A stretch of DNA of 64,000 bases, taken from positions 1-64,000 of the forward strand of contig JAUIAH010000017.1 in the NCBI GenBank assembly GCA_030425385.1, read 5' to 3'. The notes beneath the pieces are model-generated. The model searched no databases. It was not told the DNA's origin and saw nothing but the letters and a program-made list of their open reading frames with translations. The translations under genes were made by a program, and so were the position numbers. The DNA comes from Verrucomicrobiia bacterium. Its GTDB lineage: Bacteria > Verrucomicrobiota > Verrucomicrobiia > Verrucomicrobiales > DEV007. Shown here piece after piece: positions 9,880 through 24,457 of this stretch (its first letter is position 1; each line of letters starts with the position of its first letter).

Positions 9880-11592
9880 TCAGTAGCCCGCTGCCTGACC
9901 ATCTTTGCGGACCTCAGAGGCCCCATAGTAGATATCCTGCTCCGCATCGTAGCAGATGGCTTGGTAGCCTCCGTAGATCCCGCGCGCGTAGCCCACGCGG
10001 TGCCCTCGTTCTAACAAGGTGCGAATCGCTTCGTAGGCAAATCCGGATTCTAAGTTCACGGTGCCTCCATCGATCATCTCGTCACCGGTAGGCGAGGATG
10101 ATCCCGTGTGGACGACGCGAGGAGCATCGCCGGCTTCCTGGAGATTCATTCCGAAATCTATCATGTTGATGATGATCTGAGCATGCCCTTGTGGCTGGGT
10201 GGCGCCGCCCATCACCCCGAAGCTCATGAAGGGCTTGCCGTCCTTGGTGACAAAGGCAGGAATGATGGTGTGAAAGGGGCGTTTGTTAGGCGCATAACTG
10301 TTGAATCGGCCTTCACGAAGATCGAACAATTCTCCGCGGTCTTGTAGGCAGAATCCAAGACCGTCTGGGCAGAGTCCAGATCCGAACCCTCGGTAGTTGC
10401 TTTGGATCAGGGAGACCATGTTCCGGTCTTTGTCCGCCACAGTGAGGTAGATGGTATCGCCCTCTTCCAGGGCGGGATTTCCCGCTGCATAGCGCTTCGC
10501 CGCTTGGTGAGGATCGATGAGCTGTCGGCGTTCGTCGGCGTAGGGTTTGGAAATGAGTTCTTCCACCGGAAGACGATGAAAGTCAGGATCGGCATAAAAC
10601 TTGGCGCGATCTTCGAAGGCGAGTTTCTTGGCTTCGACAAACCAATGGAGATGGTCTGCGCTTCCGAATCCAGCCTTGGCAAGATCGTAGCCTTCGAGCA
10701 CATTGAGAATCTGTAAGGCCGCGATGCCCTGGCCGTTGGGTGGTAATTCCCACACATCATAGCCACGATAGTTTGCCGACACGGGATCGACCCAAGTGGA
10801 GCGATGCTCTGACAAGTCCTCGTAGCTGAGGAAACCACCCTCACGTTGAACGAAATCGGCCATCGTGCGCGCGATGTCACCTCGATAGAAGGCATCTCGA
10901 CCACTCTCGGACAGGGCGCGGAGTGTCTTGGCGAGCCCTGGATTGCGAAAGAGTTCGCCCTTCCTGGGGGCGCGTCCCTCTGGAAGGAAGGTCTCGGCGA
11001 ATCCTGCGTAGTCCTGGAAGACTTTGGCACCGGATGCCCAGGCATCGGCAATCACTTCGGAGACGGGAAACCCGGTCTCGGCATAGCGGATGGCAGGCTC
11101 TAGCAGAGTGCTCATGGGGAGTTTGCCAAACTTTTCGTGCAGCGCAAACCATCCATCGACGCAGCCCGGGACCGTGACGGGAAGAGGACCAAACTTGGGA
11201 ATGACGTCGAGACCGCGTTCGCGAAAGACCTCCATGGTCAAGCTGCGCGGAGAACGGCCACTAGCGTTTAGGCCATAGAGTTGCTGCGATTGCGCATCCC
11301 AGACAATCGCGAAGAGGTCCCCACCGATTCCATTGCCGGTGGGTTCCATCAAACCGATCGCAGCATTGGCAGCGATGGCCGCATCAATGGCATTGCCGCC
11401 CTTTTTAAGGATATCGAGCGCCACCTGCGTCGCCAATGGCTGACTGGTGGCCACCATAGCTTCCTTCGCAATCACTTCTGAACGCGAGGCAAAGCCTTTA
11501 CCCGTCAATCGATCATTTCCCATCGCATGCCACCATGGCAGGCCAAGGAGAAGCAGGGAAGCGGCAAGCTGGAGAAATCGGCACGGAATCAT
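9880..11592 (-). CDS. ggt: Gamma-glutamyltransferase family protein
   Basis: The ATG at 11592 begins a signal peptide (MIPCRFLQLAASLLLLGLPWW); the product is about 570 residues, the usual length for an autoprocessed periplasmic GGT. Family motifs: GGNAIDAAIAANAAIGLMEP, GIGGDLFAIVWD, and EEGDTIYLTV, where the Thr (about residue 380) would be the nucleophile formed by self-cleavage, followed by FGSGLCPDGLGF, NKRPFHTIIPAF and GGATQPQGHAQI. The classical T-T-H-x-S around the nucleophile is T-I-Y-L-T here, as in divergent members. It transfers or hydrolyses the gamma-glutamyl group of glutathione or related peptides. Divergent from the selenoprotein candidate, with about 90 bp between starts. Confidence 0.88.
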   Translation of the reverse strand: MIPCRFLQLAASLLLLGLPWWHAMGNDRLTGKGFASRSEVIAKEAMVATSQPLATQVALDILKKGGNAIDAAIAANAAIGLMEPTGNGIGGDLFAIVWDAQSQQLYGLNASGRSPRSLTMEVFRERGLDVIPKFGPLPVTVPGCVDGWFALHEKFGKLPMSTLLEPAIRYAETGFPVSEVIADAWASGAKVFQDYAGFAETFLPEGRAPRKGELFRNPGLAKTLRALSESGRDAFYRGDIARTMADFVQREGGFLSYEDLSEHRSTWVDPVSANYRGYDVWELPPNGQGIAALQILNVLEGYDLAKAGFGSADHLHWFVEAKKLAFEDRAKFYADPDFHRLPVEELISKPYADERRQLIDPHQAAKRYAAGNPALEEGDTIYLTVADKDRNMVSLIQSNYRGFGSGLCPDGLGFCLQDRGELFDLREGRFNSYAPNKRPFHTIIPAFVTKDGKPFMSFGVMGGATQPQGHAQIIINMIDFGMNLQEAGDAPRVVHTGSSSPTGDEMIDGGTVNLESGFAYEAIRTLLERGHRVGYARGIYGGYQAICYDAEQDIYYGASEVRKDGQAAGY

Positions 11593-11682
11593 GTCGCGAT
11601 CTTGCATGGCCGATAGGCGCTCGTAAAGGCGAACACGCGTTCAGTCTTTGACTCGCCCACCGAGCTGCGCGAGCATCTTGCC

Positions 11683-12636
11683 ATGAAGAGGAGCTTTGCG
11701 AGAAATCTGGTCGTGGCACTGCTCGTGGCAGTGGGTGTGCCTGCGACATTTGCCGATCCTGTGCCGACCTTCGCGTTGAAAGATCTCAATCCCCGTTCCG
11801 TGCGGTTTTCCCAGATGATCTCGCCGCAAGACTATCACTTGCAGGTGAGCGCCTATTACTTCGGATCCGCGGGGTGAGGCTATTGCCGGTCGCAGTTTGC
11901 GGCCTTAGAAGAAATCCTGGCAGAAATCCAAGCGGAGGTGTCAGATCTCAACGTGGAGGTGATTGGTATCAACCGTTCTGATCAAGCGGCGAACAACGGT
12001 TTGGTCGTGAATTACCAAACGCTTCCCTGGATCCAAGATACCAATGAAGTCGGCGTGTGGAACGCGTGGGAGGTCACTTGGCGCGATGTTAGGATTGTGA
12101 ACGGGCGGGGTGAACTTGCGGCGGTGCTGAATCTCACCAGCCACAACCTCTATGATGATAGCAACCGTTCCCTCATGAAACAGCTTCTGCGGGCGGAGGC
12201 TGTCGCCCGTGATGCCGATGCCGATGGCTTGCGCGATGATTGGGAAGCCCTCTATTTGCAAGATTTGGCTGCCATGTCAGGAGCGGATGATGATCCCGAT
12301 GGGGATGGCTACCGGAATGCTGTCGAGTACGCATTCGGTTCCGATCCGAGGAAGGGCAAGTCGGTGCCAGAGGTACGCGTCTGGTCGGGGACAACTGATG
12401 ACGGCCAGAAGATCCAACGTTTGTCGATGCGACGGCGCGCTGGCGATTCCATGATCTATGAATGGCAGCACTCACAGAATCTTCAAGACTGGGAGTTTGT
12501 GCAGGACCTGCCCTGGACCATCGAACCCATCTACGATGGCACGGGAACATTCCGGGAATCCGTCGATCGGCACCTCGAAGAGGAGGCCAAGACAACTTTC
12601 TGGCGGGGACAAGCGAGCGCCCCTCCAGGTGGTTAG
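11683..12636 (+). CDS. Candidate selenoprotein: exported thioredoxin-like protein, in-frame UGA as Sec
   Basis: One reading frame runs from ATG 11683 (signal peptide MKRSFARNLVVALLVAVGVPATFA) to the stop ending at 12636, interrupted only by TGA at 11875-11877. Both sides read as one protein: ..HLQVSAYYFGSAG-U-GYCRSQFAALEEIL... The UGA is the first position of a U-G-Y-C (residues 65-68), where thioredoxin-like proteins carry CxxC. After it come NVEVIGINRSDQA and TLPWIQD (redoxin-like strands), then a DADADGLRDDWE...DDPDGDGYRN calcium-type repeat and a beta-rich C-terminus. Total about 317 residues with Sec at 65. A hairpin resembling the E. coli fdhF SECIS lies just downstream of UGA. If UGA is only a stop, the product would be a 64-residue fragment. 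Confidence 0.75.
11875..11907 (+). promoter_or_regulatory. Putative bacterial SECIS element
   Basis: Immediately after the UGA, GGUCGCA (11888-11894) pairs with UGCGGCC (11898-11904), leaving a three-base GUU loop, a 7-bp stem with one G-U pair. Alternatively UGAGGC (11875-11880) pairs with GCCUUA (11902-11907) at the base while CGCA/UGCG keeps the apical stem. The 17-base apical block begins GGUCGCAGU, close to GGUUGCAGG of the known E. coli fdhF element, and the loop G is about 18 bases after UGA, within the bacterial SelB range. Recognition by SelB is inferred. Confidence 0.65.
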
Positions 12637-13644: not shown

Positions 13645-14652
13645 ATGGCAGATGACTTTCAGTCACGGATCCCTCCTGGGCAGAGCCTGACGCGCAAGTT
13701 TCCGGTAACGGGAGAGAAAGAACCCTCACACATCCTCACCGAGTCTAACTGGGAATTGGATCTCGCGGGGCAACGACGATTGTCCCTAGCAGCATTACGT
13801 GCATTTCCTACGGAAACCTTCACGATGGATATCCACTGCGTCACCAGTTGGAGCCAACTGGGGATGAGGTTTACGGGAGTGCGTTTTCGTGATTTGGTGA
13901 GAGTGGTGACGATTCCGGAAGGGACGCGTTTCGTGCGCTTTGAGGCCTATTCCTCGCGTGGGCATGACACGAGCTTGCCCGTGGACGTGGCGCTGGAAGA
14001 CAGCTGGCTTGTCTACGAAGTCGACGGCCAGCCCTTGTCTGTGGCGCACGGATTTCCGGTGCGGGTGGTGACGCCCTCACGCTATTTCTACAAGAGCCTC
14101 AAATGGCTCAAGGCCATCGCCTTTCTGTCAGAAGACCGCTTGGGATTCTGGGAGCGTGGATCAGGCTATCACAATCGTGGGGATCCGTGGCGTGAAGAGC
14201 GCTTTGATGGCGAGCGCTTCACCTCATCGGCAGAAACCAACGACTTTCGAGCACGTGATGATTATTCCGATTGGCGAGGCCGCGTGGTGCTCAAGGCAAA
14301 TCTGCGAGGATGGGATCCCCGGTGCCGCGATTTGCGAGGCTTGGCCTTGAAGGCGTGTGACTTTCGCGACGCGGCCTTGCGAGGCGTGCGACTGGAGGGA
14401 GCCAATCTCACCCTGGCAAACTTCCAAGGAGCAGACTTGCGAGAGGTCGATTTCTCTGGAGCAGACCTGGAGGGGGCGTCGTTCTCGGGAGCGCGCCTCG
14501 ATGGTGCGGTGTTTGCTGACAACTACCTTTCAGCGGCTGTCTTTGAGGGGCTGGTGAGTTTCACGGGAGCCCGGATGACGAATCCAATGGGTTTGTTAGA
14601 AGCGCAAGAAGCCTACCTCCGTGAGATCGGTGTGCTCACGCAATCCCCATAA
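13645..14652 (+). CDS. Molybdopterin-binding (sulfite-oxidase-type) domain fused to pentapeptide repeats
   Basis: A 335-residue protein without signal peptide. Residues 20-195 match the oxidoreductase molybdopterin-binding domain: MDIHCVTSWSQLGMRFTGV contains the cysteine (about 65) that would ligate the Mo centre, followed by GHDTSLPVDVALE, GFPVRVVTPSRYFYKSLKWL and GFWERGSGYHNRGDPW, typical of YedY/sulfite oxidase relatives. Residues about 215-300 are pentapeptide repeats (ANLTLANFQGADLREVDFSG.., A[DN]LxxAxF pattern), which form a right-handed beta-helix. The lack of a Tat signal suggests a cytoplasmic enzyme. Substrate unknown. Its 3' end overlaps the convergent minus-strand gene by 17 bp. 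Confidence 0.8.
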   Translation: MADDFQSRIPPGQSLTRKFPVTGEKEPSHILTESNWELDLAGQRRLSLAALRAFPTETFTMDIHCVTSWSQLGMRFTGVRFRDLVRVVTIPEGTRFVRFEAYSSRGHDTSLPVDVALEDSWLVYEVDGQPLSVAHGFPVRVVTPSRYFYKSLKWLKAIAFLSEDRLGFWERGSGYHNRGDPWREERFDGERFTSSAETNDFRARDDYSDWRGRVVLKANLRGWDPRCRDLRGLALKACDFRDAALRGVRLEGANLTLANFQGADLREVDFSGADLEGASFSGARLDGAVFADNYLSAAVFEGLVSFTGARMTNPMGLLEAQEAYLREIGVLTQSP

Positions 14653-23914: not shown

Positions 23915-24457
23915 TCACGTGTCCAAATGGCGATGGGGATCGCAGCGGTCCGTGACCACTGGTGCCGACTGTTGCCACCACTCGAACGTCATCGCGTGGG
24001 TGTTCTCAGCGTCCGCCTCGAAAGATTCATGATGGGTCCGGTGCCACCTACCATCATCGCGGAAGGGGGGGAAGCAGACTTTGCCCTCGATGGTGGCTTC
24101 TATGATCGTGAGTATCAGATGAGTGGCGATAGGGAGAGCGCTTTCATAAACCTGGCCCCCTCCGCAGACCATCAGCTCGTGGGCTCCGCGCGCTTCGGCG
24201 AGAGCGAGCGCGCTAGGAAGCGTGTCTGCACGCAGGCCGTTGGCGACCTTGTAATCAGACTGATGGGTGAGGACGATGGGAAGCTGGTTGGTGAACCAAC
24301 CATCCATCTCCTCGAAAGTGCGACGCCCTAATACGAGCACCTTTCCATCGGTCTGCTGACGGAAGTGCTGCTGATCGCGAGGGAGATGCCAGGGAATGCC
24401 CTCACCGGTGCCGAGCACCCGATGACGGGTCATGGCGGCGATCAACGTGATCTTCAA
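23915..24457 (-). CDS. folA: Dihydrofolate reductase
   Basis: A 180-residue DHFR of normal size. Key motifs: ITLIAAMTRHRVLGTGEGIPWHLPRDQQHF at the N-terminus with the substrate-binding acidic position shifted to the Asp of LPRD, KVLVLGRRTFEEM (NADPH-binding Arg-Arg-Thr), VLTHQSDY and ELMVCGGGQVYESAL. It reduces dihydrofolate to tetrahydrofolate for one-carbon metabolism. No thyA is adjacent; the upstream partner is PBP2 (8 bp). The C-terminal end (TDRCDPHRHLDT) is a little longer than usual. Confidence 0.9.
   Translation of the reverse strand: MKITLIAAMTRHRVLGTGEGIPWHLPRDQQHFRQQTDGKVLVLGRRTFEEMDGWFTNQLPIVLTHQSDYKVANGLRADTLPSALALAEARGAHELMVCGGGQVYESALPIATHLILTIIEATIEGKVCFPPFRDDGRWHRTHHESFEADAENTHAMTFEWWQQSAPVVTDRCDPHRHLDT

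Follow-up and report, generated by a model that had tools for sequence, protein, structure and literature searches.

The window, by which we mean the whole stretch of 64,000 nucleotides analysed, carries on its forward strand a frame interrupted by a single TGA at residue 65 (Table 1). The 317-residue protein reads, in order, as a signal peptide, a redoxin region, the motif U-G-Y-C, DxDxDG repeats and a C-terminal region. A first-pass annotation had described the frame, the TGA, the motif, the signal peptide and the DxDxDG region just as we read them in the sequence. A divergent gamma-glutamyltransferase-like gene (9880-11607, minus strand) lies 75 bases upstream, a pairing not seen in relatives. 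Further downstream, the frame at 13645-14652 (plus strand) reads by eye like a fusion of pentapeptide repeats to a molybdopterin domain of the sulfite-oxidase type. We found no conserved gene neighbourhood among the 17 loci compared, and the neighbours name no partner.

Table 1. Features of the predicted selenoprotein gene, in window coordinates.
Feature	Position	Strand	Basis
Predicted selenoprotein gene, complete (317 aa plus TAG stop; UGA at 11875 read as Sec)	11683..12636	+	frame open before and after the UGA in relatives
Putative signal peptide, residues 1-24, cleavage after ...ATFA	11683..11754	+	read from sequence
TlpA/ResA-like redoxin domain with U65-G-Y-C68	11755..12210	+	NF053656 match, residues 27-170; Foldseek/VIA
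In-frame UGA, predicted Sec65	11875..11877	+	UGA at this position in each of the 27 UGA-bearing sequences compared
Predicted bacterial SECIS hairpin, 6-bp stem GGUCGC/GCGGCC, loop AGUUU	11888..11904	+	folding, covariation, RNAalifold
Arg134, cis-Pro position	12082..12084	+	alignment with Pro of NRX/TlpA relatives; strand 135-139 next
TSP3-like DxDxDG repeats with putative Ca binding, a link between redoxin domain and C-terminal module	12205..12348	+	weak Pfam match
C-terminal all-beta module	12352..12633	+	six-strand model, pLDDT 83.5

The redoxin domain matches NCBIfam NF053656.1 (redoxin_TUGYCR) at 176.6 bits (cut-off 100, E 2.7e-52), covering 144 of the 146 model positions. The active site of this family, U/C-x-x-C followed by [R/Q]xQF, is present as UGYCRSQF, and all ten members of our family alignment also match the model. 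The family is therefore not new, being already curated by NCBI as 'TUGYCR motif thioredoxin fold (seleno)protein'. This refines the first-pass annotation, which was right in calling the protein a selenoprotein.

The flanking parts of the protein point outside the cytoplasm. The predicted signal peptide would be cleaved between MKRSFARNLVVALLVAVGVPATFA and DP; residues 1-21 have low pLDDT in the AlphaFold2 model (pLDDT 87.7 for the protein), and relatives also have a hydrophobic leader. Behind the redoxin domain, the match to Pfam TSP3_bac (residues 204-222) is weak (21.5 bits, cut-off 25). The C-terminal module is, in the model, a small beta-sandwich; its matches in the PDB are weak and Ig-like only, and we therefore claim no fold name. 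Four further weak copies of it occur in the same genome, in other large proteins. In one relative (L085, 1940-2587) a PEP-CTERM-like tail replaces both the TSP3 repeats and the beta-module, and another (L082) has a leader that reads as lipobox-like. Together, the C-terminal variants and the leader suggest an extracytoplasmic placement throughout the family.

Conservation of the UGA and selenocysteine machinery

Six TGAs in the window have at least 60 open codons before them and at least 200 after. Because of this, an open frame around a TGA is weak evidence when taken alone, and the case is decided by the relatives. Two other TGA-separated frames, near 23917 and 23065 on the minus strand, were considered and rejected as selenoproteins: they are adjacent ordinary genes in the same frame, reading as DHFR-like, alpha/beta-hydrolase and NUDIX proteins.

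Ten clear matches, every one with a single TGA, came from a search of 38 related genomes; they lie in nine genomes, counting that of the window itself. When 387 genomes of the order were searched with a profile, 20 genomes gave 21 matches, of which 20 have one TGA and one has none; phylum-wide matches outside the order were generic redoxins below the family cut-off and were discarded. The UGA falls at the same position in the relatives (YYFGxxxUxYCRSQF), including those of other genera and families, and full-length members continue for about 240-285 open codons after U, to the same C-terminal region. The named contigs with family members are MAGs of Verrucomicrobiales/Verrucomicrobiia. More distant members are labelled, one each, as Neomarinimicrobiota, Nealsonbacteria (the bin name may be wrong) and 'uncultured bacterium'. 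The one on the Neomarinimicrobiota contig (L090:2947-4869) adjoins two genes, one for an AhpC-type peroxiredoxin and another that begins MKKQYIEAHCDGPCG and resembles a nickel superoxide dismutase.

Codon comparison indicates purifying selection before and after the UGA: in both parts, nonsynonymous changes are fewer than synonymous ones. For example, the redoxin part after the UGA has dN 0.013 against dS 0.071 between L083 and L089, most other pairs being near saturation at synonymous sites. These observations bear on two ways in which the UGA could be a stop. The first is an ordinary CxxC redoxin turned into a pseudogene, or made to look like one, by a nonsense mutation or a sequencing error. 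TGA is indeed one base from TGC and TGT, and TGA-separated open frames are not rare in the window. However, the TGA occupies the same codon in independent genomes of several genera, selection persists beyond it and the hairpin that follows it covaries (see below). The relatives already refute this explanation, whose probability we regard as negligible, and they bear out the earlier view that a simple nonsense mutation was unlikely. The second is a programmed truncation, in which the UGA would mainly terminate translation to give a short exported peptide, with rare read-through. Sec insertion generally competes with termination, which lends this some plausibility, but purifying selection acts on the 252 downstream codons, which encode the remainder of the redoxin fold, and we consider it very unlikely.

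The genome also encodes the means to insert Sec. It has SelA (1.2e-119), SelB (283 bits, cut-off 242), a tRNA-Sec with anticodon TCA (UCA) and selD, so that all four sel genes sought after the first-pass annotation are present. The selD gene (L049, G000:C23:120876-121799) has an in-frame TGA of its own, and SelD is therefore probably a selenoprotein itself. In-frame TGAs in both genes could also be accounted for by an alternative code, with TGA a sense codon genome-wide. Yet TGA ends 19 of the 38 open frames of at least 300 codons in the window, and tRNA-Sec, SelA and SelB are all there, which leaves a genome-wide sense TGA exceedingly improbable.

selA is found in all 19 UGA-carrying genomes (in one as an edge fragment). 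Homologues with U or Cys at the site had been proposed as a check: the relatives read on past the UGA and keep U, and there is one natural Cys form (L068, G046:C21:52667-53152; YYFSQEYCPTCQAQF), the sole such homologue among the 21 order-wide matches. We detected no selA in its genome, an absence that is not certain because this genome is 86% complete. In the DNA of the Cys form, two of the six stem pairs are kept and four are broken, so that the hairpin is lost, and Leu replaces Arg134. Arg134, Sec, the SECIS and selA may have been lost together in the one Cys lineage seen, a comparison that comprises a single genome (G046).

A covarying hairpin downstream of the UGA

The hairpin GGUCGC-AGUUU-GCGGCC has a folding energy of -10.7 kcal/mol for the 24-nt core (z -2.7), and within its loop A-U can close a GUU triloop. 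Bacterial SECIS elements are described as having a loop of 3-9 nt, a stem of 4-16 bp, a G in the first two loop positions and a spacing of 16-37 nt (PMC13188914). The hairpin after the UGA agrees with these rules in its 6-bp stem, AGUUU loop and 16-nt spacing. It had been noticed in the first-pass annotation and is real, although its loop starts 16 nt after the UGA and not about 18; the likeness to E. coli fdhF pointed out at the time carries less weight than two traits of the family itself, its own AGUU[U/C] loop and the fixed spacing.

We analysed covariation across 27 sequences in an alignment that is gap-free from the UGA and was not fitted to the structure. Stem pairing is kept in 92% of the cells, against 66% in shuffled data, and 44 cells have changes on both sides of the stem, against 15.6. 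The covariation score is 0.679, compared with 0.200 +/- 0.035 after shuffling and at most 0.141 in a slid register. RNAalifold, unprompted, returned exactly the same six pairs. Covariance at 11875-11915, which had been suggested as a test of the locus, is therefore found, together with agreement with the bacterial SECIS rules. In three members (L067, L069 and L070) three or four of the six pairs form in the fixed register, and other pairings nearby fold. Searches of Rfam at E up to 10 over 11850-11960 gave chance matches only, and RF00031 had no match in any control genome either, so that this model is uninformative here.

The feature is real beyond chance because the UGA is conserved in relatives and the hairpin covaries. 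We conclude from the sequence comparisons that the TGA is very probably a selenocysteine codon and the gene that of an exported selenoprotein of family NF053656. The selenoprotein reading made at first pass is upheld by the kept UGA, the Cys variant, the covarying hairpin and the sel genes of the genome. Sec-tRNA(UCA) made by SelA would be delivered by SelB, presumably through recognition of the AGUUU hairpin 16 nt downstream of the UGA. Sec would thereby enter at residue 65, as conservation, covariation and machinery all indicate.

Active site, proposed function and known systems

The closest folds found by Foldseek/VIA are ResA and DsbE, with Z 17.6 to 3gl3 and 17.5 to ResA 1st9; TlpA/ResA-type matches superpose at 2.1-2.3 A over 132-137 residues (Z about 17). 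Peroxiredoxins align at Z about 15. In the model, the first long helix (66-85) starts right after U65. Strand 135-139 follows immediately on Arg134, which shares its alignment column with the cis-proline of nucleoredoxin- and TlpA-like relatives, an assignment made by alignment and secondary structure rather than by coordinates. In all 26 UGA members that are long enough to be compared, the Arg is present and the next residue is Asp or Glu (R-[D/E]). Peroxiredoxins have Arg where the cis-Pro would stand, and this residue lowers the pKa of their peroxidatic Cys (PMC2757866). The equivalence rests on this work and on the NRX/TlpA alignment, because our peroxiredoxin yardstick (Prx_L090) was misaligned by MAFFT near Arg134. 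Judged from the aligned sequences, the combination of a thioredoxin-type UxxC with an invariant Arg that replaces the cis-Pro in the manner of peroxiredoxins is a modest new point. The literature searched holds no written description of this feature or of the AGUUU SECIS of the family and no paper on NF053656, and the motif name TUGYCR occurs in none of its 5.39 million papers.

After export, the TlpA/ResA-like domain would use U65-x-x-C68 as a redox pair: the Sec65 selenolate would attack an oxidised substrate and C68 would resolve the selenenyl-sulfide. By analogy with the peroxiredoxin Arg, Arg134 would reduce the pKa of the selenol; besides disulfides, plausible substrates therefore include small oxidants such as peroxides. 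Retention at the cell surface or envelope is probably the task of the TSP3 repeats and the beta-module, and the C-terminal part may confer Ca-dependent stiffness or anchoring. We give roughly even chances to this functional part of the explanation, an extracytoplasmic thiol/peroxide reductant. More tentatively, the family may be a functional hybrid, in which a peroxiredoxin-type Arg, standing where the cis-proline is otherwise conserved, activates a thioredoxin-type UxxC outside the cell; the resulting Sec-dependent enzyme would act as a reductase or peroxidase on envelope or extracellular substrates. It could also be that Sec is inserted as proposed but the enzyme is mainly a Prx-like peroxidase and not a thiol-disulfide oxidoreductase. 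The best Pfam match (AhpC-TSA), the Arg at the cis-Pro position and the alignment to peroxiredoxins agree with such a role; against it, Sec takes the first-Cys position of thioredoxin (UxxC) and not that of the TxxU listed for selenoprotein Prx, and the closest folds are ResA and DsbE. We see a mainly peroxidatic enzyme as a real possibility, if the less probable one.

An apparent verrucomicrobial pseudogene is, in all likelihood, an intact selenoprotein gene, from a family that is curated yet lacks a paper description in the literature searched. Its covarying SECIS (27 sequences) could be used to find and correctly annotate other members. The thioredoxin-like active site with a peroxiredoxin-like Arg, on an exported Ca-repeat protein, would offer a concrete test of Sec use outside the cytoplasm.

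How does the protein compare with known systems? NF053656 is a domain model with the motif TUGYCR in its name, whereas our protein has GUGYCRSQ, and its record is silent on the TSP3 repeats, the C-terminal module, the SECIS and Arg134. The family is absent by name from a 2026 table of 119 prokaryotic selenoprotein families, unless it stands under the generic 'Redoxin family protein' entry. Generic Pfam redoxin models score under their cut-offs. The Prx-like thiol:disulfide oxidoreductase selenoprotein (PF00578, UxxC) of Zhang and Gladyshev's lists shares UxxC in an AhpC/TSA-like redoxin fold (PMC13188914), but our protein falls below the PF00578 cut-off (21.8 against 26 bits, still its best Pfam match) and belongs to a distinct NCBIfam family. 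Similarly, the Redoxin family selenoprotein (PF08534, UxxC; table of PMC13188914) has UxxC and redoxin in common with it, while the score is 16.9 bits against a cut-off of 26.6; its representative HEU0032618.1 may be of the same family. Of the peroxiredoxin AhpC/TSA traits, the Arg at the cis-Pro position is present, and the PxxxTxx[C/U] motif is absent: in YFGSAGUGYC, Sec takes the place of the Thr, and the residue four positions ahead of it is not Pro. With ResA, TlpA and DsbE (CcmG) the protein shares the fold, export and UxxC in the place of CxxC. It differs from them in Sec for the first Cys, in Arg134 where TlpA/ResA proteins have the cis-Pro before the third strand, in the added C-terminal TSP3 and beta modules, and in an identity of about 15-18%.
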